From NCBI GenBank assembly GCA_016937945.1, contig JAFGVP010000051.1:1-64000 (forward strand): a stretch of DNA of 64,000 nucleotides, in the 5' to 3' direction. A program made the position numbers and the translations under genes. Shown here piece after piece: positions 6,502 to 47,386 of this stretch. Source of the DNA: Pontiellaceae bacterium (GTDB lineage: Bacteria; Verrucomicrobiota; Kiritimatiellia; Kiritimatiellales; Pontiellaceae). Below the pieces are notes generated by a model, which saw only the letters and a list, made by a program, of their open reading frames with translations, had not been told where the DNA came from and did no database searches. The first letter of the stretch is position 1; every line of letters starts with the position of its first letter.

Positions 6502-6518
6502 TGGCATCAGCCCTGCTA
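6502..6518 (+). promoter_or_regulatory. Sigma-54 promoter of fliO operon, start-codon-proximal
   Basis: TGGCATCAGCCCTGCTA matches the local consensus. The C of the -12 GC is at 6516 and the fliO ATG begins at 6529, exactly 13 nt later. The predicted +1 (about 6528) abuts the ATG. An AAGGAG at 6518-6523 would lie outside this transcript and could serve only read-through mRNA from the fliS promoter. Confidence 0.85.
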
Positions 6519-6528
6519 AGGAGTGGGC

Positions 6529-6822
6529 ATGGACACGAATTCTATAGGTATGGGGCAGGACGGCCTGCTTGTTATCCGCATGCTTACTTCACTGATTCTG
6601 GTGCTGGGAGCAATGGCGGGCATCTATTTCTGGCTCAAACGCCGCGGCGGGGTTCCAGGAAGCGGTCAGCGCCGGATGCGTGTGATTGAACGACTGGCGG
6701 TTGATTCCCGCCGCAGTATCCTGCTCCTTCAGGTGGATGACGAGGAAATCGTCGTCGGTGTCGGAAATGACGGCATGTCGCGTATCAAAACCCTCAGTCC
6801 GAAGGGGGAGAGCGATGCGTAA
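6529..6822 (+). CDS. fliO: Flagellar export component FliO
   Basis: 97 aa. One membrane segment near the N-terminus (LVIRMLTSLILVLGAMAGIYFWL) is followed by a small cytoplasmic domain with the FliO pattern MRVIERLAVDSRRSILLLQVDDEEIVVGV. FliO helps assemble the FliP ring of the export gate. It is immediately followed by fliP with an 8-nt overlap. ATG 6529 is preferred over an in-frame GTG at 6523 because of the promoter spacing. Confidence 0.82.
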   Translation: MDTNSIGMGQDGLLVIRMLTSLILVLGAMAGIYFWLKRRGGVPGSGQRRMRVIERLAVDSRRSILLLQVDDEEIVVGVGNDGMSRIKTLSPKGESDA

Positions 6823-7573
6823 GTGGACCTGGATCATCCTGCTTTTTGTTCTTGGAGGAACGCTGGCGGCGTTTGGTCAGCAGACCAGCTCGGTCATGGG
6901 CCCCGGAATCAATATTCAGATCGGAACGCCAGGCGAAGAGCCCGAGGGTTTATCCCAGGCGATCCGCATTGTCATGCTGCTCACCGTGCTGAGTCTTGCG
7001 CCTTCATTTGTCATCATGACGACCTCCTTTACCCGCATTCTCGTGGTTTTCGGGTTTCTGCGCCGGGCGCTGGGAACCCAGTCTGCGCCGCCATCGCAGG
7101 TACTTGCCGGTCTTTCGCTGTTTTTGACCATCTTTATCATGCTTCCGGTCTGGAAGCAGATTAACGAGCAGGCGATTGTTCCCTATCAGGCAAAGGAAAT
7201 CACGGCGGAGCAGGCGTGGGAGGCCGGCTTCGGACCGCTTCGTGAATTCATGGCGCGGCAGACCGGCGAAACGGAATTTGCCCTGTTTGTCGAGCTAAGC
7301 GGAGAAGAAGCGGTTGAAATGGATCAGGCCGAGTTGAATATTCTCGTACCCGCTTTTGTGCTGAGTGAGCTCAAAACCTCCTTCAAGCTGGGATTTCTGA
7401 TCTATCTTCCTTTTCTCCTGATTGATCTGGTTTCTGCAACGGTACTGATGTCGCTGGGTATGATGATGCTTCCGCCGATGATGATATCACTGCCCATCAA
7501 GATTCTGTTTTTCGTGCTGGCCGATGGTTGGACCGTTCTGGTCCGGGGCCTGCTGGCAAGTTTTATGAGGTGA
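6815..7573 (+). CDS. fliP: Flagellar export gate protein FliP
   Basis: 252 aa, typical for FliP. A cleavable signal peptide (WIILLFVLGGTLAAFGQQ) precedes the mature part. Signature stretches include LAPSFVIMTTSFTRILVVFGFLRRALG and SVTVLMSLGM-type helices near the C-terminus (SATVLMSLGMMMLPPMMISLP). FliP forms the core of the export gate with FliQ and FliR in the inner membrane. The start overlaps the fliO end, and GGGGGAG (6804-6810) provides a strong ribosome site. Confidence 0.95.
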   Translation: MRKWTWIILLFVLGGTLAAFGQQTSSVMGPGINIQIGTPGEEPEGLSQAIRIVMLLTVLSLAPSFVIMTTSFTRILVVFGFLRRALGTQSAPPSQVLAGLSLFLTIFIMLPVWKQINEQAIVPYQAKEITAEQAWEAGFGPLREFMARQTGETEFALFVELSGEEAVEMDQAELNILVPAFVLSELKTSFKLGFLIYLPFLLIDLVSATVLMSLGMMMLPPMMISLPIKILFFVLADGWTVLVRGLLASFMR

Positions 7574-7577
7574 CGCC

Positions 7578-7841
7578 GTGACGCCTGAATCTGCATTGGA
7601 AATCTGTCATTACACCTTGGTAACTGCTGCGAAGCTGGCCGCTCCGCATCTGATTGCCACGATTGTAATCGGCATGCTGATGAATATTCTTCAGACCGTA
7701 ACGCAGTTGAAGGATCAGTCGCTCACGTTTGTTCCTAAAATCGTTGTTGTCGGAGCCGTCGGCCTGTTGGCCCTTCCGTGGGAAATGCAGGTGGTAAACG
7801 CCTACTTTACCTATATTCTGGATATGTTCGGCACGGTATAG
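7578..7841 (+). CDS. fliQ: Flagellar export gate protein FliQ
   Basis: 87 aa with two membrane helices (AAPHLIATIVIGMLMNILQTVTQ and IVVVGAVGLLALPWEM). The conserved LKDQSLTFVPKI between them is diagnostic of FliQ. GTG start 4 nt after fliP. Part of the FliPQR export gate. Confidence 0.94.
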   Translation: MTPESALEICHYTLVTAAKLAAPHLIATIVIGMLMNILQTVTQLKDQSLTFVPKIVVVGAVGLLALPWEMQVVNAYFTYILDMFGTV

Positions 7842-7850
7842 GAATTCGCG

Positions 7851-8633
7851 ATGCAGATGCACCTTCCCATATTACCGATTGCCATGTTGCTGGTGCTGTT
7901 CCGTTTCGGATCGCTGGTCGGCATGACGGCCATTTTCGGCCGCCAGCTGATTCCGGTCCGGATCCGGCTGACGATTGCGCTGGCGCTGACCTGGTTTACC
8001 GTGGTGCATCTTCCTCCGGAATGGATGGCTTACTGCGCCGGCATCGATAACCTGATTGCTCTCGTTGTTGCAGCTCTTGGAGAGGTTCTGCTGGGCGCTG
8101 CGATCGGTTTGGTCTGCGATCTCTTTTTCGCGATTCTGAATATGGCCGGCGCGCTGATCAGCCGCGGAAGTTCCCTGATGATGGCCCGTATGCTGGACCC
8201 CACCAGCAATGAGCAGAGCGAAATTATCACGCTGCTCTTCACCATGCTCTTTTCGCTGCTGATTCTGCTTTGGGACGGTCACCTGTTCCTGATCAAGATG
8301 ACGGTTGAAAGCTTCCGGGTTCTTCCGCCGGGCTTTTTCTGGTTCCGGGAAGAACTGCTCGAGATGGTGGTGGTGCTGGGCTCGGACGTCTTTCGCTGGG
8401 GTGTCCGTTATTCTCTTCCGGTCATGATGGGAGGGCTGCTGGTCTCTGTTTCAATGGGCCTGATGGCGCGCATCGCGCCGGAATTCAACGTGCTGTTTCT
8501 GTCGCTGCCGTTCCGGCTGGGAGTCGGTATCGGGCTGCTGACGCTGTTCCTGATGTATGGTTATGATCCGATGTTTCGGCTCTTTGAAACGATGATGATG
8601 CATCTGAAATACATTTTAGCCGGAGCCGTCTGA
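7851..8633 (+). CDS. fliR: Flagellar export gate protein FliR
   Basis: 260 aa with about six hydrophobic segments. Family features include FRFGSLVGMTAIFGRQ.IPVRIR near the start, the PEFNVLFLSLPFRLGVGIGLL block and the final YGYDP. Completes the FliPQR complex of the inner-membrane export gate. It starts 9 nt after fliQ and ends 2 nt before flhB. Confidence 0.93.
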   Translation: MQMHLPILPIAMLLVLFRFGSLVGMTAIFGRQLIPVRIRLTIALALTWFTVVHLPPEWMAYCAGIDNLIALVVAALGEVLLGAAIGLVCDLFFAILNMAGALISRGSSLMMARMLDPTSNEQSEIITLLFTMLFSLLILLWDGHLFLIKMTVESFRVLPPGFFWFREELLEMVVVLGSDVFRWGVRYSLPVMMGGLLVSVSMGLMARIAPEFNVLFLSLPFRLGVGIGLLTLFLMYGYDPMFRLFETMMMHLKYILAGAV

Positions 8634-8635
8634 CC

Positions 8636-9739
8636 ATGGGACTGCTACATCCAGAAGAAGGTACAGACGGTAAAACCGAACGCGGAACACAGCGCAAGCG
8701 CAAGGAAGCCCGCAAAGAGGGAAAGGTCGTAATTTCCAACGAAATCATCACCATTGTGGTGCTTGCCGGCGGGATGCTTGTGCTGATGGGCATGCTGCCT
8801 TTGATGAAATATTATCTCACCGGTTTCATGTATCAGTGGACGGAGATCGATGTAACCGGTTCCTGGTCTATCGAAATGGTTCAAGGCCTGATCCGTCAGA
8901 GCGCCATGATGTGCGTACTTGGAATCCTTCCCTTCGGCATTGTTGCCGTTTTGGGATCCACGGTCGCCTCGATGGCGCAGACCCAGCCGTTCTTCCAGCC
9001 GGAAGTCATGAAGCTCAATTTTAATGCGCTCAATCCGGTCAATGGAGCCAAACAGCTGTTTTCCATGGAGAGTATCGTCAAGCTGGTGCTCTCCATGTTG
9101 AAAGTGGCCGTGATTTCGCTGGTGGTCTGGAGCGTGGTCCGTAAGCAGCTCAATGAGCTGGCCTTTCTTAATCGGCTGGATATTTCCGAAGGCATTCAGT
9201 GGTTCATGACGCTGCTGATCCGCATCTGCATCCGCGTCCTCAGCCTCTTCATGCTTATTGCTGTCCTCGACTGGATCAAGGAGAAGCGCAAGTTTGAAAA
9301 AAGCATCATGATGACGAAGCAGGAAGTGAAGGAAGAGCACAAGAGCCAGCAGTCCAGCCCGCAGGTCAAGCAGAAGATGCGCAACAAGATGCGCCAGCTT
9401 TCCACGGCCCGCATGATGGCTGCCGTGCCCGATGCCACCGTTGTTGTTACCAACCCGACCTTTATCGCCATTGCCATCAAATATGATCCAGCATCCGGCG
9501 GAGCCCCGATTGTGGTGGCCAAGGGCAAACGCCTAACCGCGAAACGTATCCGTGCCATTGCCGAAGAAAACGGCGTTGCTATTGTTGAACGCAAGCCGCT
9601 GGCCCGTGCCATGTACAACAAGGTCGAAATCGGCAAGCCCGTTCCGGCAACATACTATCAGGCGATTGCCGAACTGCTGGCCTACCTCTACCGTATGGGC
9701 AACGCCCGCATCCGGCAGCAGATGGCGATGCGCCGCTAG
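8636..9739 (+). CDS. flhB: Flagellar export switch protein FlhB
   Basis: 367 aa. A charged N-terminus (TERGTQRKRKEARKEGKV) is followed by four membrane helices and a cytoplasmic FlhBc domain. FlhB switches export from rod/hook to filament substrates after self-cleavage between Asn and Pro of an NPTH motif. Here the site reads NPTF (Asn273-Phe276) inside the expected context VVVTNPTFIAIAIKYDP. Asn and Pro are kept but His is replaced. Downstream features (APIVVAKG, IVERKPLARAMY) are normal. It closes the fliO-fliP-fliQ-fliR-flhB run, and the next flagellar gene, flhA, is 6.8 kb away. Confidence 0.94.
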   Translation: MGLLHPEEGTDGKTERGTQRKRKEARKEGKVVISNEIITIVVLAGGMLVLMGMLPLMKYYLTGFMYQWTEIDVTGSWSIEMVQGLIRQSAMMCVLGILPFGIVAVLGSTVASMAQTQPFFQPEVMKLNFNALNPVNGAKQLFSMESIVKLVLSMLKVAVISLVVWSVVRKQLNELAFLNRLDISEGIQWFMTLLIRICIRVLSLFMLIAVLDWIKEKRKFEKSIMMTKQEVKEEHKSQQSSPQVKQKMRNKMRQLSTARMMAAVPDATVVVTNPTFIAIAIKYDPASGGAPIVVAKGKRLTAKRIRAIAEENGVAIVERKPLARAMYNKVEIGKPVPATYYQAIAELLAYLYRMGNARIRQQMAMRR

Positions 9740-9772: not shown

Positions 9773-10276
9773 TCAGTCCAGCGTGCATTCCATGATAAAG
9801 TCATCCATGTAATAGCCGCTGCCAATATCTTTCTTTACCGTGTCGGCAATCGAAAATCCCTTGCCTTTGTACCAGCCGATCGTGCGCTCATTGTGCCGGT
9901 TGACGGTCAGCCAGACGGTGCCGGCTCCTGTATCCGCGGCCCGTTTTTTCGTGAGCGCAAGCAGGGCATTGCCGACTCCGGCGCCGCGTGCGGTGTCCTT
10001 TACATAAATTTTGCTCAGCATCATTTTTCCCGTCGGTTCGTTCGGGATGAGCCCGATATAGCCCACGGGTACGCCGTTCTGTCGCGCAATGTGATATTCA
10101 AACCGGTCCGCGAGCTGCGCTTGAATTGCTTCGGCACTCTGAAAGCGTTCCAGCATGTAGTTGATCTGATGAGGCCCGATGATACTCATGTAATGCTGCG
10201 TCCAGATTTCTCTGGCCAGTTGGGCCACGGTCAGGATTCCGTCGCGATTGCTAACCGGTTCAATGGTCACATTCAT
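9773..10276 (-). CDS. GNAT-family N-acetyltransferase
   Basis: 167 aa with the GNAT fold signature: beta4 KIYVKDTARGAGVGNALLALTKKRA contains the acetyl-CoA-binding R/Q-x-x-G-x-G/A loop (RGAGVG), and the C-terminal part has NERTIGWYKGKGF. The substrate is unknown. It is convergent with flhB and begins the stretch of non-flagellar genes that separates flhB from flhA. Confidence 0.85.
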   Translation of the reverse strand: MNVTIEPVSNRDGILTVAQLAREIWTQHYMSIIGPHQINYMLERFQSAEAIQAQLADRFEYHIARQNGVPVGYIGLIPNEPTGKMMLSKIYVKDTARGAGVGNALLALTKKRAADTGAGTVWLTVNRHNERTIGWYKGKGFSIADTVKKDIGSGYYMDDFIMECTLD

Positions 10277-10618
10277 GAATTATTATCCCCTTCTAAGTAA
10301 TGCTGATCTATTTCCATTGTTTCGTTTGCCGCATCTTTCTGTCTTTTGGGCTTCGTGATCTGAATATGGATTCGAATCACTTGTAAACGATACGTACATT
10401 TGATGGGTTGCGGAATCGTTTTCGTAAATATGTTGTTCGCTGTGTTCTGTTTTGAAGAGGAGGAGCGGCTGATATAATCGCACCGTTGTACATGCCGGCA
10501 TGCGGACGCAGTGATGCGGGACGTATGCGGTTTTCGAATTTCCGGGAACGTGGTTGTTTATCCATGTTTCTGGATTGTAAATTTTTATGTGTGTAGCGCC
10601 GGTTATGCGGGAGCAGAA
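10277..10618. other. Intergenic region before the pectin cassette
   Basis: About 340 bp between the divergent GNAT gene and a GH28 remnant. No gene was recognised. A TGTA-N9-TACA element at 10382-10398 could be a LacI-type operator half-pair, but the match is poor. The left part is the GNAT leader. The right part is probably decayed GH28 sequence. Confidence 0.35.
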
Positions 10619-10996
10619 ATGAATATGCTGGTCATCAGTAGTGCAGCAATGCGACGTTCGGTCAATGATGACTGTATTGCGCTGAAGGGCTCCAAGGGGC
10701 CTTTTGCCATGGAGGATAAATCCAGTCCGCCGGTGGAGTGCGTGCATGTGGAAGACTGCATGTTCCACCGCGGCCACGGCGTGGTGACCTGCGGGAGCGA
10801 GGCCACGATTGTTCGCGACTTGCTGGTGGAAAACTGCACGGTTGAGGGAAATGCTGAAACACAGTTTGGTCCCATCTGGCTGGAGGATGTTGAAGTACAG
10901 GCTGAAAGCAGTGATTTCAAGGTCTGTGATGCGGTTCGGGAATTATATCTGGATCGGGTTTTTGTTAATAGGGGTCAGTACGAGCTTAAACGATGA
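10619..10996 (+). pseudogene. GH28 polygalacturonase-family remnant
   Basis: The reading frame contains a clear GH28 core: NDDCIALKG, VHVEDCMFHRGHGVVTCGSEAT and VENCTVEGN. These correspond to the DD catalytic pair, the catalytic GHG segment and a parallel beta-helix coil. GH28 enzymes are usually 400-500 aa, while this frame is about 125 aa. It lacks the whole N-terminal half and jumps from the helix core to a short C-terminus, so it is best read as a truncated, internally deleted gene. It sits before pectin-related genes, which fits an ancestral pectin or rhamnogalacturonan locus. Confidence 0.7.
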
Positions 10997-11083
10997 AGAA
11001 AGAAGTGTTTGCAATGCTGCCGGGGTCGGGGATTCAGGAGAATCGACTGAAACGATATTATTCATAAAGATAGAGAGGACAGG

Positions 11084-12331
11084 ATGACGACGATACCTAA
11101 ATATACGCTGGGCTGCGGCGACCGCTTTGCCCGAGAAGGACAAGCCCAGCTGACGGCCTACATGGAGGCCGGAAAACAGGGCATCACCATTTCGCCGGTC
11201 TGGAATAAATCGTACCGGGAGCACATGACCGTTCACACGGAACCGGCGTCCGTCCGGGCGGAAGCCGATGCGGCCGTGAAAGCCCTTGGCTGGCGCGGTG
11301 ACTATTATGTGGATGCCGACCATATTTCCCTTAAGAGCGTCGACCGCTTTATCGAGCCCTCCAATTTCTTCACGCTCGATGTCGCCGATTTTATCGGCGA
11401 AAAGGCCGACGCTGCGTCGATTGATGCTTTTGCCGCGGCCATGGCGGACATGGTGGGCGAGATTACCCTGCCGGGGCTGGAAGAGTCGCTGGTGGTTTCA
11501 GAAGCGGATATCCGCGCTTTTGCTGAAAAATATCTCTATGCCGTCCAGGAAGCCGGCCGGATTTACCGGCATATTGAAGCGAATAAGTCCGGCGCCTTCG
11601 AGGTGGAGGTTTCCATGGATGAAACCGACGATCCGCAAACGCCGCTCGAAATGCTCTTTATTCTGGCGATGATTGCCCGTGAAGGCATTCCGGTGGACAC
11701 GGTGGCTCCGAAGTTCAGCGGCCGCTTTAACAAGGGTGTTGATTATGTCGGCGATGTCGCCCAGTTTGAGAAGGAATTCGAGCAGGATGTTGCGGCGCTG
11801 AAGTTTGCGGCTGAAAAATTCGGACTGAAAGAGAGCCTGCGGCTGAGCGTGCACTCCGGCAGCGACAAGTTTTCCATCTATCCCGCCATGAACCGCATCA
11901 TTCGGAAATGGGGCGTCGGCCTGCATGTTAAGACCGCCGGAACCTCCTGGCTTGAAGAGGTGATCGGGCTGGCGGAAGCCGGCGGCGAAGGGCTGGATGT
12001 CGCGAAAAAAATCTATGCCCGGGCGCTGGCGCGTTACGACGAACTGGCCGCTCCGTATGCGACCGTGCTCGATATCAATCCCGATCGGCTCCCATCGGCG
12101 GAAATTGTGGATGGATGGGACAGCGATGCCTATGTAAAGGCGCTGCGCCATGATCTGGACTGTCCGGAATATAATGCGGACTTCCGTCAGCTGATTCACG
12201 TGGCCTACAAGGTCGCCTATGAGCTGGGTGACGAATATTTTGCGGCGCTCGAAAAGTCTGCGGATATCGTGGGGCGCAACGTGACGCACAATATCCTGAA
12301 CCGTCACATTCTACCGATTTTCGGCGCATAA
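11084..12331 (+). CDS. Tagaturonate epimerase family protein (UxaE-like)
   Basis: 415 aa. The N-terminal block YTLGCGDRFAREGQAQLTAY, followed by SPVWNKSYREHMTVHTEPASVRAEADAAVKALGW and YYVDADHISLKSVDRF, matches my recollection of the UxaE (tagaturonate C4-epimerase) family. His and Asp residues in the last block and KFSGRFNKGVDYVGD, HSGSDKFSIYP look like metal and substrate sites. Such enzymes convert D-tagaturonate to D-fructuronate in galacturonate breakdown. Genes for pectin side-chain attack follow it, which supports the call. The exact substrate is inferred. Confidence 0.7.
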   Translation: MTTIPKYTLGCGDRFAREGQAQLTAYMEAGKQGITISPVWNKSYREHMTVHTEPASVRAEADAAVKALGWRGDYYVDADHISLKSVDRFIEPSNFFTLDVADFIGEKADAASIDAFAAAMADMVGEITLPGLEESLVVSEADIRAFAEKYLYAVQEAGRIYRHIEANKSGAFEVEVSMDETDDPQTPLEMLFILAMIAREGIPVDTVAPKFSGRFNKGVDYVGDVAQFEKEFEQDVAALKFAAEKFGLKESLRLSVHSGSDKFSIYPAMNRIIRKWGVGLHVKTAGTSWLEEVIGLAEAGGEGLDVAKKIYARALARYDELAAPYATVLDINPDRLPSAEIVDGWDSDAYVKALRHDLDCPEYNADFRQLIHVAYKVAYELGDEYFAALEKSADIVGRNVTHNILNRHILPIFGA

Positions 12332-12338
12332 ATCTGTT

Positions 12339-12362
12339 TTCAGCGCCGGACGGGACGCTGAA
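12339..12362 (+). other. Hairpin between UxaE-like and esterase genes
   Basis: TTCAGCG (12339-12345) pairs perfectly with CGCTGAA (12356-12362). No T-run follows. It could be an mRNA processing or stability element between two cassette genes. Confidence 0.4.
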
Positions 12363-12385
12363 CTATGAGAATTCAGGAGTTAATA

Positions 12386-13648
12386 ATGAAACGGAACCTT
12401 GCTCGTTTATTCCTGCTGGCTCCCGTGCTGGCCATGACGGCCTGCGCAGCCATGCCGAAAGGGGAACACTTTTATTTCGGAGAGGGCCGTCTTCCGAACG
12501 GATTCACCCGGGTGACGGATCGCAGCGATTATCCGGCCGATCGAGGATTCGGATGGCTGAACGGTCATGATAATCACTTTGCCGTGGAGCTGCCTGAAGG
12601 AAACTACACGGTCACGGTCGCCTACACCTCGCCCGAAGCGGCCGCCGCCGCAACCGTCAAGGCCGAGGCCCGCCGCCTGATGCTTCTAAAGCAGGAGAAC
12701 AGCGGAGAAAAGATTCGTTCGTTCACGGTCAATATCCGGCGACCGGAAATCAAAGGCGGTGGCCGTGTTAAGCTCAACAAGCGTGAAACCGATCCGGAAA
12801 TGGTGGCGCACTGGGATAATCTCCTGACGCTTGAATTCCTGCCGGATGTCAAGGATGTGGCCGGCATCAGCATTGAACCGGTGCCGGAGGCGATCACTGT
12901 TTACATTGCCGGCGACTCCACCGTAACCGACCAGCGGGCCGAGCCGTGGTCCGGCTGGGGACAGGCGCTTCCGAGTTTCTTTGAGCCGGGCGTAGCCGTG
13001 GCAAACTATGCGGAATCGGGCCGTGCCCTGTTCAGCTTCCTCTGGGAAAAGCGACTGGAAAAGATTCTCAGCGAGATCAAGCCGGGCGACTATCTATTCA
13101 TTCAGTTCGGTCATAACGACCAGAAGGATAAGCGCGAAGGTGCCGGTCCGTTCACAACGTATAAACAGGAGCTTGAACAGTATATTGCCGCCGTGGAAGC
13201 AAAAGAGGCGCATGCCGTATTGGTTACCCCGATGGAACGCCGCCGCTGGAACGGAGGCAAGCCGACGGAAACGCTGACGGATTATGCCGCGGCGATACGG
13301 CAGGTTGGCGCGGAGAAGAAGGTGCCGGTCATTGACCTGCATGCCATGAGTCTCAGGTTTTATGCGGCATTGGGCGAAGCGGATTCTACGAAGGCGTTTG
13401 TACACTATCCGGCCAATTCCTTCCCGAATCAGGACAAAGCATTGAAGGATGATACCCACCACAATGTGTATGGCGCCTATGAACTCGCGCGTTGCGTGGT
13501 GGAAGGGATTAAATCGGAGGTGCCGGAGCTTGCGAAGAAGCTGCGATCGGATGTCGGAACCTTTGATCCGTCAAAGCCGGATGCACCGGAGTCGCTCGAT
13601 ATTCCGGCCAGCTCCGATGCCGGGGCGGAAACACCGGAAGGCAGTTAG
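12386..13648 (+). CDS. SGNH-fold rhamnogalacturonan acetylesterase-like lipoprotein
   Basis: 420 aa. The start at 12386 is chosen for the CAGGAG at 12374-12379. An ATG at 12365 lies upstream of that site. The N-terminus ends in MTAC (Cys20), an acceptable lipobox, so it is probably a lipoprotein. Residues 25-165 form a beta domain. The SGNH domain shows block I YIAGDSTVTDQ (nucleophile Ser178), a Gly/Asn block NYAESGRALFSF, block III IQFGHNDQKD and a C-terminal DDTHHN Asp/His pair near 355-358. The pattern is that of CE12-type rhamnogalacturonan acetylesterases (RhgT/YesT). It lies between a uronate epimerase gene and a GH78 rhamnosidase gene, so acetylated rhamnogalacturonan I is a plausible substrate. 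Confidence 0.82.
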   Translation: MKRNLARLFLLAPVLAMTACAAMPKGEHFYFGEGRLPNGFTRVTDRSDYPADRGFGWLNGHDNHFAVELPEGNYTVTVAYTSPEAAAAATVKAEARRLMLLKQENSGEKIRSFTVNIRRPEIKGGGRVKLNKRETDPEMVAHWDNLLTLEFLPDVKDVAGISIEPVPEAITVYIAGDSTVTDQRAEPWSGWGQALPSFFEPGVAVANYAESGRALFSFLWEKRLEKILSEIKPGDYLFIQFGHNDQKDKREGAGPFTTYKQELEQYIAAVEAKEAHAVLVTPMERRRWNGGKPTETLTDYAAAIRQVGAEKKVPVIDLHAMSLRFYAALGEADSTKAFVHYPANSFPNQDKALKDDTHHNVYGAYELARCVVEGIKSEVPELAKKLRSDVGTFDPSKPDAPESLDIPASSDAGAETPEGS

Positions 13649-13701
13649 CCGGACACATACCGCACAATGCCGCTGAAACGCAATGAGTCTATGGAGGGTC
13701 G

Positions 13702-16455
13702 ATGAAGAAGGTGAGTGACCGAGGTCGGATTGTGTTTGGCAGCGTAGCGGGTGCGGTTGTGCTTTTCGGGGGTGTTTTCTGTCGTGCCGGAGCTCCGGGG
13801 GCGCCGGATCAACTGCGGGTGTGCGACGTTGCGGTTCCGGTTGGAACCGGCGCTTCACCGTCCTTCGGCTGGCACGTAAATGATACCGATTCGGACGAGA
13901 TTCAGGCGGCTTATCAGGTGTTGGTCTCTTCTGCCCCGGAAGGTGCCGGTGATTTGTGGGACAGCGGAAAGGTTGCCAGCCGACTGCAGAATCATATCGC
14001 CTATGCGGGCATTCCGCTTTCGAGTGATCAGGCCTGCTTCTGGAAAGTGCGCACGTGGGATAAAGACGGTCATGAAGGCGCATGGTCCGGGACACAGCGC
14101 TTCGTGGTCGGCCTGCTGGATAATGCGGAGTGGTCCGGCGCAAAATGGATCCGGCGCAATACGGATGATGCCGATGACTACACCTATTACCGGAAATCTC
14201 TGGAGATTCCGGCAAAACCCATTGAGCGTGCCACGGCCTATGTGACCGGCGTGCATAAATATGCCCTCTATGTGAACGGCACTCTGGTCGGCAAGGGCCC
14301 GGCCTATCACCACCCGCAGTATCAGTATTACAACGCCTTCGACATAACGGCGCAGTTGAAATCCGGCGCGGCCAACCAGCTTGCCGTTTTCAACCACTGG
14401 TTTGGCGGCGGGCAGGGGCGTCCAGAAAGTGCACGCGGGATTCTGTTCAAGGCGATTATTCATTATACCGACGGCAGCTGCACGGAAACCGGATCGGACG
14501 GCAGTTGGAAGCAGTGCCGCGCAGAGGCATGGATGCTGTCCGGACTCGCGCACCGCAACAAGGGAGAGGGGATCGGTTATGTCGAAAAAATCGATGCACG
14601 TAAACTGATCCCTGACTGGATGTCGTTGGGTTTTGATGATTCGTCGTGGGAATTCGCCTCGGAAATCGGTGCTCCTCCGGTTGAGCCGTGGACCGGGATT
14701 CCGGCGCCGGACCTGACGCGAATTCAGGAATATGAAATCAAGCCGGTCTCCATCACCCGCGAGTCCGGCAAACGTTATCTGGTGGATTTCGGAAAGGTGT
14801 ATGCCGGTCGGCCTCGGATTGCCTTTTCCGGAGGCGCAGCAAATGAACAGGTTGAAATGCTCGGCGGCTATGTGGTTGATAAGTCGGGACGCGTGGATCC
14901 GGCGGGTAACCAGTCGACCGATCTGCACTATTTTGTCACGCTCAGCGGAGAAGACTTTGTCTTTGAGCCGGAGGAATATCTGGGCATGCGCTATCTGCAG
15001 GTGGATGATTCGCCGATGCCCCTGACCGCAGATAATGTCTCTTTTATTGTGCGCCACAGCGTCATGGCTCCGGATGCGTCGTCGTTTGAATCGCCGGACG
15101 AAACCCTGAACGCCGTCTGGGAACTGATGAAGCATTCGCTGCTCACCTGCGCCATGGAGGAATTCGTCGATACGCCCACCCGCGAAAAGGGCGGATTCCT
15201 CGCGGATTCCATTATTCAGAGTACGGTGGCGATGCCGGTCATGAACGAGCGGGCGCTGACGCAGCGGACGCTTGTTGAATTTATTCAGTCGATGGAGCAG
15301 TACTGGTCGGATCCGGCAAACCGCGGCCGCATGAATGCCGTCTATCCCAACCACGACGGAGCGCGCGATATTCCCGACTTTACGCAGGCTTACCCGGTTT
15401 GGGTCTGGAACTACTACATGGAAACCGGCGATCGGACATTTCTCGAAACGTGTTATGACCGGCTGAAAGATATTGCCGACTATGTGTATCGCCACCAGAA
15501 TGACGACACCGGGCTGGTCACCAACCTGACCGGCGGGAAGGGTCCTTATGAGTATGGGATCGTCGATTGGCCGGCCACGATGCGCTACGGCTATGAGATG
15601 ACCGCAGCCCGAACGGTGGTCAATGGGTGGGCTTATGCCGATTACCGGGTTCTCGGTCAGGTTGCCGGCGTACTGGATCGGAAGGACGATCAGAAGACAT
15701 TTGAAAAACGGGCGGAAAAGCTGGCTGCCGCCATGAATGAAGAGCTCACCCAAAGCTCCGGAGTCTATGTGGACGGACTTTCGGAATGCGGTGCAAAAAG
15801 TTCCCGCGTTTCGCAGCATGCCAATATGTTCCCGCTGGCGCTGGGCATCGTGCCGAATGAACGGCGTACGGCGGTTCTTGATGTGGTGAAGGAGCAGGGA
15901 ATCCGTGTCGGGATGGTGACGATGCCGATGCTGATTCGAGCGCTTGGCGAGTCCGGCGCCGGTGATCAGCTGGTTGAAATCCTAACCGATGAAAAAGAGC
16001 CCGGCTGGGCGCAATGCCTGGCTAAAGGGGCCACGGCGACCTGGGAAGCCTGGGATGCCGATACGACGAAACAGAGCCGGTCGCATGCCTGGGGCGCTTC
16101 CGGCCTCGAGGCCTATGTCCGCTATATTCTAGGGATCCGGCCTCTGGCGCCGCAGTATGAAGAGGTTCTGATCCAGCCGCTTGACTGCGGAAGCGATCTT
16201 GACTGGGCGAAAGGGCATATCACGACGGATCGCGGACCGATTTACGTGCATTGGAAGCTGCTGCCTGAAGGCTACGCTCTTCAGGTGACGCTGCCGGCCA
16301 ATGTTATCGCCCGTATCGCCCTGCCGAAAGGAAGCTCCTCCCGATTCTCCGTCTACCTGGATGGGAAAAAGGTCCGGACCGATACGGATGGCAATTTTGT
16401 CATCGTTTCGCGTGTCGGATCGGGTGAACATACGCTCGTCAGGAAAGACGGATAG
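13702..16455 (+). CDS. Alpha-L-rhamnosidase, GH78
   Basis: 917 aa, usual for multidomain GH78 enzymes. A signal peptide (VFGSVAGAVVLFGGVFC) is followed by the family-typical Fn3-like start (PDQLRVCDVAVPVGTG...SFGWHV...AYQVLVSS). The beta-sandwich domain contains the conserved KYALYVNGTLVGKGPAYHHPQYQYYN. The (alpha/alpha)6 catalytic domain begins near residue 460. Its acid motif is EEFVDTPTREKGGFLADS, centred on Asp490. A WGASGLEAYVRYILGIRP block and a C-terminal beta-sandwich follow. It releases terminal rhamnose from rhamnogalacturonan or glycosides outside the cytoplasm. GGAGGG supports the start. Confidence 0.9.
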   Translation: MKKVSDRGRIVFGSVAGAVVLFGGVFCRAGAPGAPDQLRVCDVAVPVGTGASPSFGWHVNDTDSDEIQAAYQVLVSSAPEGAGDLWDSGKVASRLQNHIAYAGIPLSSDQACFWKVRTWDKDGHEGAWSGTQRFVVGLLDNAEWSGAKWIRRNTDDADDYTYYRKSLEIPAKPIERATAYVTGVHKYALYVNGTLVGKGPAYHHPQYQYYNAFDITAQLKSGAANQLAVFNHWFGGGQGRPESARGILFKAIIHYTDGSCTETGSDGSWKQCRAEAWMLSGLAHRNKGEGIGYVEKIDARKLIPDWMSLGFDDSSWEFASEIGAPPVEPWTGIPAPDLTRIQEYEIKPVSITRESGKRYLVDFGKVYAGRPRIAFSGGAANEQVEMLGGYVVDKSGRVDPAGNQSTDLHYFVTLSGEDFVFEPEEYLGMRYLQVDDSPMPLTADNVSFIVRHSVMAPDASSFESPDETLNAVWELMKHSLLTCAMEEFVDTPTREKGGFLADSIIQSTVAMPVMNERALTQRTLVEFIQSMEQYWSDPANRGRMNAVYPNHDGARDIPDFTQAYPVWVWNYYMETGDRTFLETCYDRLKDIADYVYRHQNDDTGLVTNLTGGKGPYEYGIVDWPATMRYGYEMTAARTVVNGWAYADYRVLGQVAGVLDRKDDQKTFEKRAEKLAAAMNEELTQSSGVYVDGLSECGAKSSRVSQHANMFPLALGIVPNERRTAVLDVVKEQGIRVGMVTMPMLIRALGESGAGDQLVEILTDEKEPGWAQCLAKGATATWEAWDADTTKQSRSHAWGASGLEAYVRYILGIRPLAPQYEEVLIQPLDCGSDLDWAKGHITTDRGPIYVHWKLLPEGYALQVTLPANVIARIALPKGSSSRFSVYLDGKKVRTDTDGNFVIVSRVGSGEHTLVRKDG

Positions 16456-16518: not shown

Positions 16519-16535
16519 TGGCACCGGGCATGCTA
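16519..16535 (+). promoter_or_regulatory. Sigma-54 promoter of flhA, start-codon-proximal
   Basis: TGGCACCGGGCATGCTA, with the -12 C at 16533. The flhA ATG at 16546 is exactly 13 nt downstream. No ribosome binding site lies in between. A 9-bp direct repeat, GGGCATGCT, occurs at 16526-16534 (over the -12 element) and 16542-16550 (over the ATG). Confidence 0.83.
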
Positions 16536-18666: not shown

Positions 18667-18682
18667 CTAACAAGGGATGGGA

Positions 18683-20674: not shown

Positions 20675-20691
20675 TGGCATTGGGTCTGCTA
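20675..20691 (+). promoter_or_regulatory. Sigma-54 promoter of flgB operon, start-codon-proximal
   Basis: TGGCATTGGGTCTGCTA. The -12 C is at 20689 and the flgB ATG is at 20702, exactly 13 nt later. The intervening bases contain no usable ribosome site. It should drive the long flgB-flgC-fliE-fliF run. Confidence 0.85.
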
Positions 20692-27351: not shown

Positions 27352-28553
27352 TGAACCCGGCAGAATTAATTTCCGTTTCCGCAGAATCCCCTGCGAAGGT
27401 CGGTAAATCCTCCGCCAAGAGCGAAAGCGATGCGCAGGATGGAAGCTTCATGACCCTGTTTGACGGCGTCCTTGATTTCACTCAGCAACAGCAGTTGCCG
27501 ACACTCTTCCTCAAGGGAATGATTTCCGGCGACGCGACTCCTGCAGAATCGGAATCCGGCGCGACTTCCGGACTGAAGAAAATGTCGGCCCGGATCATGG
27601 ATGGAGTGGTCGAAGGCATGGCCGGCAGGAGCCAGCCGCAACTTGTGGGTGGCGTGTCTGAAATATTGCCGGAGGGCGCTTTTTTGACGGGACAGGCTGC
27701 TTCGGAACTTTCTGCTGAGGAGCCGGTTGCGGCCTCGCAGGCGTCGATGGGAGAAGCCCTCTTTGAAATGATGGGAATCACGGCGCAATCCATCCTGAAG
27801 GCGGCGCCGGCAGAGGATGCGCAGTCGCTGGTTGAGCTGGTGAAATCGCAGGCTGCTGAAGTCGGGGGAGAGGCGGCTCCGGCGGAGCAGCTTCCTCTGG
27901 TAGAGTCCGGCGATGTTGCCGCTTCCGGAACAGAAACCGGCGAGCGGGTTCAGGCGGGGATTCCCGTTGCGGATGTGATGCTGCATCTGACGAAGCCGGA
28001 TCGCAGTAAGCTTGAGCAGAAACTGACAGCGCCGGTTTCGGTTGAATCGGAAAATACCACTCAGCAGACCGCACCGCGCCCGGCCGGCGTCATGCAGCCT
28101 TCCGTTCCGGTTGCCGTTCCTAACAACGAGACCATGGTTCGAATCGAAGAGCTTTCCGAAAAGTTTGACCAGCGCCTGCTCTCCATGGTGCAGCGCAATG
28201 AACAGGTCATGAAGATTACGGTTGAGCCGGCGACGCTGGGTAAGGTGACGGTGCTGTGCAAGCAGGAGAAGGATTCGGTCAGTGTGGAAATCCACGTGCA
28301 GAATCAGGGTGTGCGCGACCTGATCGCCCGTCAGGAAAATGATATCCGCCGGGTCTTGATGGAATCCGATATCGATATGAGCGGTTTTGACGTGATGCTC
28401 GGACAGCAACGTGACGGGCGGGACTCTTCTGCGTCGGGGCAGGGTGAATTTACGCAGGAGGCACGTGGCATCGTGCCTGCTTCGGAAGACGATGGAGATA
28501 TGGAGCCCGTCCAGAACCTTCGTCATAAACAGGCCGCAAAATGGGTCGCCTAA
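27351..28553 (+). CDS. fliK: Hook-length control protein FliK
   Basis: 400 aa. A long low-complexity, Ala/Glu/Ser-rich molecular-ruler region (1-255) is followed by the Flg_hook C-terminal domain: LSMVQRNEQVMKITVEPATLGKVTVLCKQEKDSVSVEIHVQNQGVRDLIARQENDIRRVL in several strands. It is exported to measure the hook and trigger FlhB switching. The ATG overlaps the stop of the preceding gene. The 3' part of the gene contains a sigma-54 promoter for flgD. Confidence 0.85.
   Translation: MNPAELISVSAESPAKVGKSSAKSESDAQDGSFMTLFDGVLDFTQQQQLPTLFLKGMISGDATPAESESGATSGLKKMSARIMDGVVEGMAGRSQPQLVGGVSEILPEGAFLTGQAASELSAEEPVAASQASMGEALFEMMGITAQSILKAAPAEDAQSLVELVKSQAAEVGGEAAPAEQLPLVESGDVAASGTETGERVQAGIPVADVMLHLTKPDRSKLEQKLTAPVSVESENTTQQTAPRPAGVMQPSVPVAVPNNETMVRIEELSEKFDQRLLSMVQRNEQVMKITVEPATLGKVTVLCKQEKDSVSVEIHVQNQGVRDLIARQENDIRRVLMESDIDMSGFDVMLGQQRDGRDSSASGQGEFTQEARGIVPASEDDGDMEPVQNLRHKQAAKWVA
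28466..28482 (+). promoter_or_regulatory. Sigma-54 promoter for flgD, inside fliK
   Basis: TGGCATCGTGCCTGCTT, a full match to the local consensus, lies within the last 90 bp of the fliK coding sequence. The -12 C is at 28480 and the predicted start is near 28492. The flgD leader would be about 73 nt with an AAGGAG ribosome site. Confidence 0.75.
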
Positions 28554-36049: not shown

Positions 36050-36073
36050 TCGCGTTGCCGCATAATCAGCGGG

Positions 36074-36099
36074 CGGCAGAGCGATCTGCCGTCTTTTTT
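36074..36099 (+). terminator. Rho-independent terminator after the repeat protein
   Basis: CGGCAGA (36074-36080) pairs with TCTGCCG (36085-36091) around GCGA, followed by TCTTTTTT. It isolates the repeat-protein gene from flgF. Confidence 0.9.
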
Positions 36100-36196: not shown

Positions 36197-36213
36197 TGGC
36201 ATTTGGCCTGCTT
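36197..36213 (+). promoter_or_regulatory. Sigma-54 promoter of flgF operon, start-codon-proximal
   Basis: TGGCATTTGGCCTGCTT. The -12 C is at 36211 and the flgF ATG is at 36224, exactly 13 nt later. No ribosome site lies between them. Confidence 0.85.
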
Positions 36214-42487: not shown

Positions 42488-42500
42488 GGAGAGGTGACAG

Positions 42501-42858: not shown

Positions 42859-44340
42859 ATGAGTGGGAATGTTTCAATGTACAACAGCAATAATCTTAAC
42901 CAGCAGCTTAACCTTGCACCGCAGTTACTGAACTGGTTGAAGATCCTTCAGGCATCCCGTCTTGACCTCACCCAGATGATCCACGAAGAGCTCGCGAGCA
43001 ACCCGGCTCTCGAAGAGGGTTCCTCCGACAGCGACTCCGTGATGGATGACTGGTCTTCCGATGAAATGCCCCTCGATTCCTCCGAAATGTATCTGGATGG
43101 GTCCGATGTTGGCACCCGGCTTTCCGTGCTGGCTGATATTGATGAAGAATGGCGCAGTGCCGACGACCAGCCGCTGGCAAGCAGTCAGGTTCTTCAGGAA
43201 AAACACGATTTCATGATCGATCATCTGGTCAAGGCCTCCAGCCTTCGGGACGAGTTGGAAGACATGATTCTCTTCTCGGATCTCGACGGAATCGAAGCAC
43301 GCATCGCAGGTATTATTGCCGGATCAATCGACGACCGCGGCTATCTGGATGCTCGGGTTGAAGATATTGCCCTCATGACCGATTCCGCTGTTGAAACGGT
43401 TGAGCGTGTTCTGGATGTATTCCAGCAAATGGCGCCGGCCGGAATCGCTGCCCGGGACCTGCGCGAATGCCTCCTTCTTCAGTTAAAAGCCATGGATGCA
43501 GACACCGGCCTGGCCGAAGAGCTGGCCGGCAACTGGCTGGAAAACCTGGCCATGAAGCAGCACAAGGCGCTGGCGGACCACCTAGGTGTTTCGCTGGATG
43601 CGCTGAATGAAGCCTTCGATCTGATCCGTACGCTCGATCCCGAACCGGGCCGCAGCTATAGCAGTGCGCCGGTTGAGTATGTGGAAGCCGATATGGAAAT
43701 TTTCATGAAATCCGGAGAGCTACAGGTGGAACTGCTGGATGCACGTCTGCCGCGGCTTCAGCTGAGCAGCTACTGCAAGATGCTGCTGGAAGCGAGAAAG
43801 GGCAGCAAGGAGGACCTGCATTTTATCCGGATGAAGGTTCGCGAAGCCAACTTCCTGATCCAGGGCATTTCGCAACGGCAGGATACGATGCTCAAGGTGG
43901 CGCATGAAATCATGCGGGTTCAGCGTTCATTCCTGACCACGAAAGACGGCCGCATGCAGCCGCTGACCATGAACAAGGTGGCGTCAATGATCGGCGTGCA
44001 CGAAACGACCGTCAGCCGGGCCATTGCCAACAAGTATATCCGTACGCAGCGCGGCCTGATCGAAATGAGGGCCTTCTTCAAGGTGGGTTACCGTTGCGCC
44101 GACGGTTCCTCGGTCGCGCCCGAACGCGTTCGGGAAATGGTGGCTGAGCTGATTCACGATGAAGATCCCCTCAAGCCGTTGATTGATTCGACCATTTCCG
44201 ACCACTTCAAGAAAATGGGGCTGAAAGTGGCCCGCCGCACGGTTGCCAAATACCGTGAAGAACTTGATATCCCGTCCTCCAAGGAACGGCTTGCTTCGGC
44301 CCGCCGCCGGAAAAATATGAAGCTGGCCATGGCCGTTTGA
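42859..44340 (+). CDS. rpoN: RNA polymerase sigma-54 factor RpoN
   Basis: 493 aa. Region I (LNQQLNLAPQLLNWLKILQASRLDLTQMIHEELASNPALE) interacts with activators. An acidic region II follows, then the core-binding domain (about 110-300). The DNA-binding part includes TMNKVASMIGVHETTVSRAIANKYIRTQRG. The RpoN box ARRTVAKYREEL lies at 458-469. AGGAGGG supports the start. A sigma-54 gene inside a flagellar cluster whose genes carry -24/-12 promoters suggests that flagella are a main use of this factor here. Confidence 0.95.
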   Translation: MSGNVSMYNSNNLNQQLNLAPQLLNWLKILQASRLDLTQMIHEELASNPALEEGSSDSDSVMDDWSSDEMPLDSSEMYLDGSDVGTRLSVLADIDEEWRSADDQPLASSQVLQEKHDFMIDHLVKASSLRDELEDMILFSDLDGIEARIAGIIAGSIDDRGYLDARVEDIALMTDSAVETVERVLDVFQQMAPAGIAARDLRECLLLQLKAMDADTGLAEELAGNWLENLAMKQHKALADHLGVSLDALNEAFDLIRTLDPEPGRSYSSAPVEYVEADMEIFMKSGELQVELLDARLPRLQLSSYCKMLLEARKGSKEDLHFIRMKVREANFLIQGISQRQDTMLKVAHEIMRVQRSFLTTKDGRMQPLTMNKVASMIGVHETTVSRAIANKYIRTQRGLIEMRAFFKVGYRCADGSSVAPERVREMVAELIHDEDPLKPLIDSTISDHFKKMGLKVARRTVAKYREELDIPSSKERLASARRRKNMKLAMAV

Positions 44341-44441
44341 GTATGGCGCGCCGCCGGATCCCTGCATAGATTGATATGTCTTGAAAAGTTTATTGAGGTG
44401 GGGCCGGTGGTCGGTTATATCTTTTGCTTGGGGACAAAACA

Positions 44442-44831: not shown

Positions 44832-44847
44832 TATCATGCGCTCCAAT

Positions 44848-44864
44848 GGCATCGGCCCTGCTAT
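44848..44864 (+). promoter_or_regulatory. Sigma-54 promoter of flgL
   Basis: TGGCATCGGCCCTGCTA, with the -12 C at 44862. The flgL GTG at 44894 is 32 nt further on, and a GGAGG ribosome site (44883-44887) lies between, so the mRNA has a short normal leader. Confidence 0.85.
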
Positions 44865-44893
44865 CAATGGGTAGCTAATAATGGAGGTCGATT

Positions 44894-45808
44894 GTGCGTA
44901 TTTCTAATCAGATGCAGAACCAGATGCTGTCGGATAATATCAGCCGAAGCCAGTCTGCCGTGTATGAGCAGACGGAGCGGATATCATCCGGAAAACGGCT
45001 CCAGCGAGCATCCGACGATGCCACCGGCTGGGCGCGGGCCGCAGAACTGACGTCGCTTCAGGAGCGGTTGGAACAGTTCGAGCGCAATTCCGACTATCTG
45101 CAATCCCAACTTGAATCGGTCGATCAGACCCTCAGCACAATCAGCGATATTCTGCAGAATGCTTCTGAGATTGCGGTAACAGCCTCCGATGCCACCCTGA
45201 ATGAGAGCGATCGCGTTGCAATGGCCAATGAAGTGGATCAGTTTCTGGAGGCCCTGGTGCTGAATGCCAACAATTCATATGGTAGCCAATATCAGTTTGG
45301 CGGGGTTGCAAACACCGCTCCGCCGTTTGAGGTGACGCGCAATGCAAATGGACAGATTGATTCCGTGACTTATGTCGGGGCTGCAATTTCCGCCCAGATT
45401 AATATTGCCGATGGCGATGCGCTGCCGGGCCAGATGGTCGGGGGCGATGCCGATAACGGCGTTCTTCTATCTGATTCCAGTGATGCGTTTGCCGCACTGA
45501 TTGAGATGCGCGATCGTCTCGCCAATGGCGAAAACCTAGCTGAAACCAATGTGCAGAATCAGGTCGATAATGCGTTTGAACGTGTGATTGTAGGGCGCGC
45601 CAGCATCGGGGCTTATTTGGAACATATTTCGTTTGTGGACGAGGTCCGCACCAGCCAGGTGGAGCAGGTCATGACCGATATCGCAACGATTGAGGATATC
45701 GATCTCGCTCAGGCAGCCACCGAGCTCTCCGAAAAACAGAGTGCTTACGAGGCCGCTCTGGCAATGACCTCGAAAACCCTGCGCACATCGCTCCTCGACT
45801 ATCTCTAG
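44894..45808 (+). CDS. flgL: Hook-filament junction protein FlgL
   Basis: 304 aa, GTG start after GGAGG. The N-terminus (RISNQMQNQMLSDNISRSQSAVYEQTERISSGKRLQRASDDA) and C-terminus (EDIDLAQAATELSEKQSAYEAALAMTSKTLRTSLLDYL) are flagellin-like D0/D1 ends. Length and the ISSGKRL...ASDD motif fit FlgL rather than flagellin, and it follows flgK and rpoN. Confidence 0.9.
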   Translation: MRISNQMQNQMLSDNISRSQSAVYEQTERISSGKRLQRASDDATGWARAAELTSLQERLEQFERNSDYLQSQLESVDQTLSTISDILQNASEIAVTASDATLNESDRVAMANEVDQFLEALVLNANNSYGSQYQFGGVANTAPPFEVTRNANGQIDSVTYVGAAISAQINIADGDALPGQMVGGDADNGVLLSDSSDAFAALIEMRDRLANGENLAETNVQNQVDNAFERVIVGRASIGAYLEHISFVDEVRTSQVEQVMTDIATIEDIDLAQAATELSEKQSAYEAALAMTSKTLRTSLLDYL

Positions 45809-46069
45809 TCGCACCCCGCATCGTTTGAAATCGATCGATGGCCTTTAGGTCGATGGTCTTGGAATCCGTCTGAACTGTCCGGGCGTTTTTCCTTAAGAAT
45901 GGGAAGCGTTTCCTGCTCTCTCCGTTTCACTTCGAGGGCGCTTAAGAAGGGTCCGTCTATTTGTCGTGCGCTCGCGACGGAGGCGCAGAGCGGATTCCAA
46001 ATAAAAGAGGTCGGTCCAACCCTTTGTTTCATGACCTCACCAGACTGTTTCCTAAAAAGCGGGGCACGC
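45809..46069. other. Intergenic region between flgL and flgM
   Basis: About 260 bp between convergent transcription units. No gene or clear plus-strand terminator was found. Short frames look like chance. Confidence 0.4.
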
Positions 46070-46105
46070 AAAAAAAGCGTCTTGACGGCATGAGGTCCAG
46101 ACGCT
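46070..46105 (-). terminator. Terminator of the flgM operon, minus strand
   Basis: Read on the minus strand, AGCGTCT and AGACGCT (46099-46105 and 46076-46082) form a 7-bp stem followed by a run of T (46070-46075). It lies just after the flgM stop. Confidence 0.7.
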
Positions 46106-46123
46106 GAAAACAGGATCGGTTGC

Positions 46124-46396
46124 TTATTTCTGCATCTTGTCAAGGATGCTGTCGATGGTTGCATCATCCAGTTCAAACGGGGCAGCGGCGATTCCCGCAT
46201 ATTTACTCAGCACTTCGGGCCGGACATCGGTATTTTCGCGCAGGGCTTCCATGTTGCGGGAAAGCATCAGCGCGCGGTCGGAGGTGCGAATCTGATCGCC
46301 TGCGGCCTCTTGGGCGTTGGTTGGCACCTTTTTCTGGGGCGCGGCATCATTTTTGATGCCGGTCATTTGACTGAGATTATTGAGTTCTATTCTCAT
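46124..46396 (-). CDS. flgM: Anti-sigma-28 factor FlgM
   Basis: 90 aa, typical FlgM length. A polar, unstructured N-terminal half is followed by the C-terminal helical part (VRPEVLSKYAGIAAAPFELDDATIDSILDKM), which aligns in pattern with the FliA-binding region of FlgM. AGGAG precedes the start. FlgM holds FliA inactive until the hook is complete and FlgM is exported. It is the last gene of a minus-strand operon with a sigma-54 promoter, which fits middle-class timing. Confidence 0.72.
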   Translation of the reverse strand: MRIELNNLSQMTGIKNDAAPQKKVPTNAQEAAGDQIRTSDRALMLSRNMEALRENTDVRPEVLSKYAGIAAAPFELDDATIDSILDKMQK

Positions 46397-46406
46397 GGCT
46401 ATGCTC

Positions 46407-47075
46407 CTAAAACATCAGTTTTTCGGCCAGTACAGTACTGCTCGTGTCGGCTGCAAAAGCCTGGAAGGTGCTCGGCGATTTCAGCCTGAAGCTGAGGTCC
46501 GTTTCCTCTTCCGGCTCTTTCTTGTTCGCTTTACAGAATTCGTTGAAATATTCGACCACATCGCGGTCCTGTGCATCAAAAACAGCAGAAAGTTCTGCGC
46601 AGACCGTGTCGGTTCTTGCATTAATTACTACGATGCGCAAGTCAATACATTGGGGATGATAGATGCGGATGCTTCGCACATGAGGACAGATTACATAGCT
46701 GGCGCCCATTAGGTTGCCGATAATCGCAATCTCTTTCAGGTTGAGTGTTCCGTCGCTCAGCAGCAGGTTCCCGCCGGTGATATAGGGCGCATAGGCGCTG
46801 TCTGGTGCGATTTCCTTGACCGGCGTTGAAAAACGGCGAAGCATGGCTCGGGAGAGTTGCTCATGAAATCGGGAACGCTGCGTTTCATCTTCCATTCCGA
46901 GCGGGGGCAGGAGAAGCAGTCCATTGATAATGGTCGGGTCAAAATTGTCATACTTGTGCATCCGTATGGGCGAGTGACGTTCGGTTTCGATCTCGACCAA
47001 CGTTGATGTCGTTGTGTGTGCGCATCCGGTCAGCAGGCCGGCGCCGCAGATCAGGCTCAGCCACCGGGGGGTCAT
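46407..47075 (-). CDS. Lipoprotein of unknown function in flgM operon
   Basis: 222 aa from ATG 47075, which has GGAAGGAG upstream. Lipobox LTGC with Cys18. The body has an alternating alpha/beta pattern (LLLPPLGMEDETQRSRFHEQLSRAMLRRF; ASYVICPHVRSIRIYHPQCIDLRIVVINARTDTVCAELS) that resembles CsgG/FlgO-like or TolB-N-like folds, but I cannot assign a family. Operon with flgM suggests an envelope part of the flagellum. Confidence 0.65.
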   Translation of the reverse strand: MTPRWLSLICGAGLLTGCAHTTTSTLVEIETERHSPIRMHKYDNFDPTIINGLLLLPPLGMEDETQRSRFHEQLSRAMLRRFSTPVKEIAPDSAYAPYITGGNLLLSDGTLNLKEIAIIGNLMGASYVICPHVRSIRIYHPQCIDLRIVVINARTDTVCAELSAVFDAQDRDVVEYFNEFCKANKKEPEEETDLSFRLKSPSTFQAFAADTSSTVLAEKLMF

Positions 47076-47359
47076 GCGGCGGCTCCTTCCTGCTGATACT
47101 GGATATCGAAGGTCGCTTCGCATCCGCAGGTGCAGCTTACTCGCAGTGACTTGATTTTTCCGTTTTCGAAAATCGGGGTGACCCGGATGTTGTCCTGCGG
47201 TTCTCCGATCGGAACCGGATCCTTGCGATAGACAATCTGGTCTGCACGAATAATCGTGGAAAATCGTCGGGGCGCGCGGGTTTTCGCCCGTTTTTTATGA
47301 TGCACGTGCGCAGCACTCACAAAGGTGCTCTTTTCCCATTGGTGATTGGATGTTTTCAT
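47072..47359 (-). CDS. Small protein with CxCxC motif, first gene of flgM operon
   Basis: 95 aa. The N-terminus is rich in His and basic residues (HVHHKKRAKTRAPRR), and the C-terminal part has SLRVSCTCGCEATFDIQY, three close Cys that could bind metal. There is no signal peptide. The ATG at 47359 has no ribosome site but is exactly 13 nt after the promoter -12 C. The end overlaps the lipoprotein ATG by 4 nt. Family unknown. Confidence 0.62.
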   Translation of the reverse strand: MKTSNHQWEKSTFVSAAHVHHKKRAKTRAPRRFSTIIRADQIVYRKDPVPIGEPQDNIRVTPIFENGKIKSLRVSCTCGCEATFDIQYQQEGAAA

Positions 47360-47369
47360 GCCCCGAAAG

Positions 47370-47386
47370 AAGCAGTCTGCATGCCA
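47370..47386 (-). promoter_or_regulatory. Sigma-54 promoter of flgM operon, start-codon-proximal
   Basis: On the minus strand TGGCATGCAGACTGCTT. The -12 C is at 47372 and the ATG begins at 47359, exactly 13 nt downstream. It is divergent from the glycan-operon promoter, with only 57 bp between the two elements. Confidence 0.83.

Follow-up and report, generated by a model that had tools for sequence, protein, structure and literature searches.

The stretch of DNA analysed here, 64,000 nucleotides (nt) of contig JAFGVP010000051.1 from a Pontiellaceae bacterium (assembly GCA_016937945.1; hereafter the window), carries a flagellar gene cluster in which five sigma-54 promoters of the -24/-12 type each precede an ATG at one and the same short spacing. 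By spacing we mean the distance in nt from the C of the -12 GC to the A of the ATG. Both RpoN (sigma-54) and an AAA+ activator are available within the cluster (Table 1). Family models back FliO, FliP, FlhA, FlgB, FlgG, FlgK, FlgD, FliF, FliG, FliE and FliS; the best score of flgF is to the FlgEFG subfamily, under the flgF cut-off, and its name rests on its place before flgG. A preliminary description of this DNA had labelled the minus-strand operon flgM, a name we do not retain, since neither Pfam nor NCBIfam gave a match for the gene so proposed (46124-46396). The NCBI taxonomy places the Pontiellaceae within Kiritimatiellota, Kiritimatiellia, and the closest named relatives by FlhA are Pontiellaceae bacteria B12219 (81% identity) and B1224 (80%).

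Table 1. Promoters, regulators and other features of the window discussed in the text
Feature	Coordinates	Strand	Sequence	Details
Sigma-54 promoter of fliO	6502..6517	+	TGGCATCAGCCCTGCT	-12 C 6516, ATG 6529, spacing 13; FliO by family model
Sigma-54 promoter of flhA	16519..16534	+	TGGCACCGGGCATGCT	-12 C 16533, ATG 16546, spacing 13; FlhA by family model
Sigma-54 promoter of flgB	20675..20690	+	TGGCATTGGGTCTGCT	-12 C 20689, ATG 20702, spacing 13; FlgB by family model
Sigma-54 promoter of flgF	36197..36212	+	TGGCATTTGGCCTGCT	-12 C 36211, ATG 36224, spacing 13
Sigma-54 promoter of minus-strand operon	47371..47386	-	TGGCATGCAGACTGCT	-12 C 47372, ATG 47359, spacing 13
First gene of minus-strand operon, 95 amino acids (aa)	47072..47359	-		no Pfam or NCBIfam match
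Sigma-54 site of fliS	5602..5617	+		92 nt to listed TTG start 5708; FliS by family model
Sigma-54 site of flgD	28466..28481	+		spacing 85; leadered, with Shine-Dalgarno site
Sigma-54 site of flgL-like gene	44847..44862	+		spacing 33, GTG start; leadered, with Shine-Dalgarno site
Divergent sigma-54-like site (TGGCAA) of sulfotransferase gene	47444..47459	+		spacing 56
Terminator-like hairpin	36071..36094	+		10 pairs and T tail; between preceding gene and flgF promoter
RpoN (sigma-54)	42859..44340	+		three Sigma54 Pfam domains
Probable flagellar sigma-54 activator	4107..5504	+		Pfam: receiver, Sigma54_activat, Fis-type helix-turn-helix

All five short-spaced promoters were recovered where the preliminary description had placed them, and rereading gave the same letters before the start codon, GC directly 5' of the ATG in all five and GGGC in four. 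The GG and GC doublets stand 10 nt apart in a TGGCAY-N5-YTGCW context, flhA having A instead of Y. That only fliO has a ribosome-binding site held in that AAGGAG occurs in fliO alone, where it sits within the spacer between promoter and ATG. The term "unlinked", once applied to the five units, is loose, all of them lying within 41 kb of one contig. Chance was rejected as the source of the shared distance, as had been supposed: ten sites in the window score at least 15 within 130 nt 5' of gene starts, five of them lie at one identical distance, and 0 of 200,000 uniform draws (10-100 nt) gave five sites at one distance. A wrong choice of start codon was likewise rejected, the alignments for fliO, flhA, flgB and flgF starting at residue 1 within the genus. 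The other promoters have longer leaders, just as described (Table 1); across the genus the spacing is 85-88 for flgD and 33-37 for the flgL-like gene, so that lengths vary, and Shine-Dalgarno sites are present.

The pattern TGGCAY-N5-YTGC-N0-30-ATG has 33 matches in the window's own genome (G000, 4.28 Mb), some sites being counted twice, with eight at spacing 13; a reversed control pattern gave eight matches. Four of the five window promoters are among the 33, and flhA is missing because its -14 base is A. Off the flagellar contig the matches yielded no convincing additional leaderless gene, the open reading frame (ORF) found at 13 nt in locus L003 having an uncertain start. Two sigma-54-like sites off this contig, at L003 and L029 (contigs C11 and C153), have ACGTTAGGGA in common just 3'. 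Within the window, a site at 18667 before a ParA-like gene at 18677 (TGGCATCGGCCTAGCT, distance 10) is probably no promoter and is without a counterpart in five aligned relatives.

FlhA was found in seven of the 43 genomes of the order, with one weak match (G150, E 9.8e-4), and five flagellated genomes of the genus (G000, G061, G108, G120 and G141) were compared. The scan of relatives that had been proposed as a check bears out the spacing at genus level: it is 13 in 20 of 20 gene/genome cases for fliO, flhA, flgB and flgF. For the 95-aa gene it is 13, 14 and 14 in three aligned genomes (14 in G061 and G141) and 14 in G120. Offsets for 229 homology-assigned starts number 21 at 13, two at 14 and at most two at any other value. 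Identity between genus members is 88-95% in the promoter cores and 49-72% in the spacers; length is therefore kept while letters change. Conservation is highest in the promoter core and in the final letters of the spacer. Of 23 short-spaced genus cases, 21 have G at -2 and 18 have it at -3, followed by a pyrimidine and then the ATG. A pyrimidine just 5' of the ATG is found in all 23 of these, in 48 of the 59 short-spaced cases of the wider survey below and in 97 of 156 operon-internal starts, and fits the start-site preference of transcription beginning at A. Among 73 matches listed for genomes of the same genus or family that have no flagella, spacings of 14 and 15 nt are modestly over-represented (10 and 6), a tally drawn from 113 matches listed with own-genome, G108 and nested rows left out.

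The wider survey was confined to one GTDB phylum, which we take to be Verrucomicrobiota. Its 81 pairs of sigma-54 site and gene comprise 59 at spacing 13-19, none at 20-24 and 22 at 25 or more (short and long classes below); sites scoring down to 13 were accepted (13.5 in G331; 14 in G180, G213, G225 and several long cases; 14.5 in G440), and the start codons of other families were assigned by visual reading. The start codon of the short class is ATG in 58 of 59 cases and GTG in one. In another family of the order (G136) spacing is 14 at flhA, flgB and flgF, and fliO has a weaker site, CGGCAT, at spacing 15. Six genomes from other families of the class have flgF spacings of 13, 13, 14, 14, 14 and 16, at protein identities of 34-43%. 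Of the 46 genomes in the phylum sample, 37 have a flgF spacing of 13-19 and nine one of 36-53; the short-spaced cases outside the class belong mostly to one family (f53), and there the commonest spacing is 16. This sample comes from a flgF family match in 48 of 387 phylum genomes, with G238, G420 and G428 left out and G030, G042 and G140 added; G382, where the site is weak and the start lies at 65 nt, and G028, whose contig is cut, were dropped. The flhA genes of other families (L034, L046-L051), which stand outside the 81-case count, have no close sigma-54 site. Finally, in the flagellar regions of G232, G239, G327, G366, G257, G234 and G136, an ATG-started ORF lies at 13-20 nt from 23 of 31 sites, including starts read by eye as flgB and flhB; this tally takes only sites followed by an ORF of at least 55 aa and overlaps the 81-case set for flgF and G136.

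Exactly 13 nt does not survive as a general rule, since relatives lie at 13-20 and the exact value is mainly a genus trait. Variable spacing in relatives had been named beforehand as evidence that would count against the idea, and it was found in part, with constancy in the genus and variation over 13-20 in other families. As read from these predicted promoters, on the other hand, the short-spacing rule reaches further than had been proposed. As a separate observation, seven of the nine leadered flgF genes (G337, G439, G443, G415, G252, G260 and G441) have a TGCG -12 element, and nearly all short-spaced ones TGCT or TGCA.

The short and long classes differ sharply in their potential to pair with the anti-Shine-Dalgarno sequence. 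Mean duplex energies are -2.8 kcal/mol for the 59 short cases, -6.7 for the 22 long cases and -6.3 for the 156 operon-internal starts; the corresponding P values, 7e-9 and 4e-15, are overstated, because related genomes are not independent. Energies of -4.4 kcal/mol or lower are reached by 17% of short cases (34% when shuffled), 91% of long cases (29%) and 72% of internal starts (43%). With flgF alone, one per genome, the means are -2.6 for short (n=37) and -5.7 for long cases (n=9; P 4e-4). All but two of the long class, G140 flgB and G252 flgF, reach the threshold (20 of 22). For flgB the spacing is 14 in G060, whereas five other genomes have 25-40; of these five, all but G140 reach -4.4 kcal/mol 5' of the start. 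Short-class starts are thus without the Shine-Dalgarno site that a leaderless message would lack, yet 17% reach the threshold. Short spacing and Shine-Dalgarno sites exclude each other, which is what the longer-leader promoters, offered earlier as an internal control, had led one to expect.

The class is not purely flagellar, contrary to its first description, since short-spaced sites also precede genes of an unknown family and an N_methyl gene. Genus members without FlhA encode a family of 110-112-aa proteins (..DMDVGLFVSYE..) at spacing 14 in L234, L236, L237 and L238 and 13 in L241, with no Pfam match in the one copy scanned. In G114 a type IV pilin-like (N_methyl) gene (L242:304-765) follows a sigma-54 site at spacing 13. 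Ten of 20 regions, all picked for short spacing, have an ATG at 13-14 that opens an ORF of at least 40 aa.

We consider it quite probable that sigma-54 transcription starts at, or within a few nt of, the start codon of these genes, giving leaderless or ultra-short-leader mRNAs that have no Shine-Dalgarno site; at the level of sequence, comparison between genomes gives good support to a leaderless or near-leaderless start. RpoN-RNA polymerase would wait on the -24/-12 element until opened by an enhancer-binding protein, presumably the activator of the cluster. RNA would then start about 12 nt past the -12 C, as predicted from the -12 element, and ribosomes would probably initiate at the 5'-proximal AUG of the first cistron, with ordinary Shine-Dalgarno sites serving the downstream cistrons. 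Published sigma-54 starts have GC at -12 and initiation about 12 nt past the C (PMC4842269), and in Campylobacter jejuni the sigma-54 motif lies 8-13 nt 5' of mapped starts (PMC3847290). At spacing 13 the A of the ATG would be at +2, or at +1 given one base of drift, and at 14-20 the leaders would be of a few nt; either way no Shine-Dalgarno site would fit inside the transcript. Four of the five promoter regions also have no sigma-70-like match, which speaks for the sigma-54 start. The original placing of the start codon exactly at +1 or +2 is not established, relatives being at 13-20. Considering the spacings of 14-20 outside the genus, leader length is more safely put at 0 to about 8 nt.

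Several points weigh against a leaderless or near-leaderless start, beside the dependence among genomes already mentioned. With spacing 13 in the genus and 13-20 elsewhere, the AUG could be exactly at +1 over the whole phylum only if the start point drifted. Shine-Dalgarno-like letters (AAGGAG, GGAGG) occur in some genus spacers, very near the ATG, and the A content of early codons does not differ between short cases (0.353) and internal starts (0.356). The 16S end GGATCACCTCCTTTC was found in four of nine genomes, all of the genus; five f53 genomes have no exact match to it, and the window's own assembly none even to a shorter pattern. The anti-Shine-Dalgarno sequence is therefore assumed elsewhere. 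In addition, some Verrucomicrobia are reported to be Shine-Dalgarno-scarce (PMC10783764). Finally, the stretches that separate fliO, flhA and flgB from their preceding genes yielded no terminator-like hairpin, and the minus-strand operon has a weak sigma-70-like match upstream (47545-47517, 9/12; two in the region against 0.3 expected).

These last two observations are what speaks for an arrangement in which the operons are expressed mainly on longer transcripts, by read-through or from another promoter, and are translated without Shine-Dalgarno from the leader, the sigma-54 element adding little. Read-through is possible for fliO, flhA and flgB, which follow same-strand genes. As a general account, longer transcripts seem to us improbable, since a terminator-like hairpin precedes flgF, the minus-strand operon is divergent, the promoter cores are highly conserved, and Shine-Dalgarno sites are present at same-strand internal genes.

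If transcription instead started a few nt upstream of the usual point, the G-rich letters just ahead of the ATG could act as a tightly spaced Shine-Dalgarno site, as the frequent G at -2 and -3 in the genus and the occasional GGAGG would allow. However, -4.4 kcal/mol is reached upstream of -3 in just 2 of 23 genus short cases (0.09) against 41% of shuffles, spacers of other families have no G run, and RNA would need to begin within about 8 nt of the -12 C; we give this version rather less credence than longer transcripts. Hardest to credit is the proposal that the fixed spacing serves transcription, through the initial transcribed sequence or promoter escape, with the position of the ATG a by-product. 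It would account for the conservation of the last spacer letters along with the promoter core, but in the same genomes other sigma-54 sites of equal strength have their start codons at a distance of 33-92 nt, which argues that promoter function needs no ATG at short distance.

Returning to sigma-54 starts at or near the AUG, we lean towards regarding the short-spaced operon heads as a distinct, phylum-wide class, enhancer-gated and leaderless, in which the promoter would also fix the translation start. It would take in flagellar rod, export and hook operons together with some pilus-like and unknown genes, and would be old, flgB and flgF having switched between leaderless and Shine-Dalgarno starts from family to family. 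Leaderless mRNAs from sigma-70-type promoters in C. jejuni (PMC3847290), Bradyrhizobium japonicum (PMC4842269) and Leptospira interrogans likewise have the promoter at a fixed short distance from the ATG and no Shine-Dalgarno site; in the first two the papers describe a -10 box. The present promoters, unlike those, are of the -24/-12 type, and are conserved at the same genes across families. Leaderless mRNAs are little conserved between C. jejuni and H. pylori (PMC3847290), and those of Leptospira show an under-representation of motility genes at one temperature.

The RpoN-dependent flagellar operons of Campylobacter, Vibrio and Caulobacter offer the other parallel, with RpoN and a response-regulator activator in the cluster and -24/-12 promoters on rod and hook operons; a partial search of that literature found no report of a leaderless sigma-54 flagellar mRNA. 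The one named leaderless gene of Caulobacter has CtrA and SciP motifs, and for S. meliloti 171 leaderless starts and 112 sigma-54 promoters are given, their overlap not being stated in the accessible text. Leaderless mRNAs have been described before, as have sigma-54 flagellar promoters, and their conserved pairing looks undescribed. The earlier statement that no class of sigma-54 leaderless flagellar operons has been described stands in that our search found none, and needs amending in that the class is not only flagellar; its novelty rests on a partial search, with subscription journals mostly outside coverage. Leaderless genes in the literature examined are sigma-70-driven and poorly conserved between species, and what would be added is a leaderless set that is gene-specific, widely conserved and controlled by the most tightly gated of bacterial promoters. 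Since the same gene (flgB, flgF) would have switched between a leaderless and a Shine-Dalgarno start, one could test why genes become leaderless. Such switches also suggest a translational layer in the order of flagellar assembly, and the spacing supplies a practical gene-start rule for these genomes.

Pontiella agarivorans has a full flagellar gene set, yet no motility or flagella were seen (PMC10880615); flagellar sigma-54 promoters may therefore be silent in usual culture. In the window, the region 9773-16455, between the gene at the FlhB position and flhA, holds unrelated genes, one of them for an alpha-L-rhamnosidase. The flagellar regions of four relatives have no homologues of these genes, and flhA there follows the FlhB-position gene after about 50 nt.

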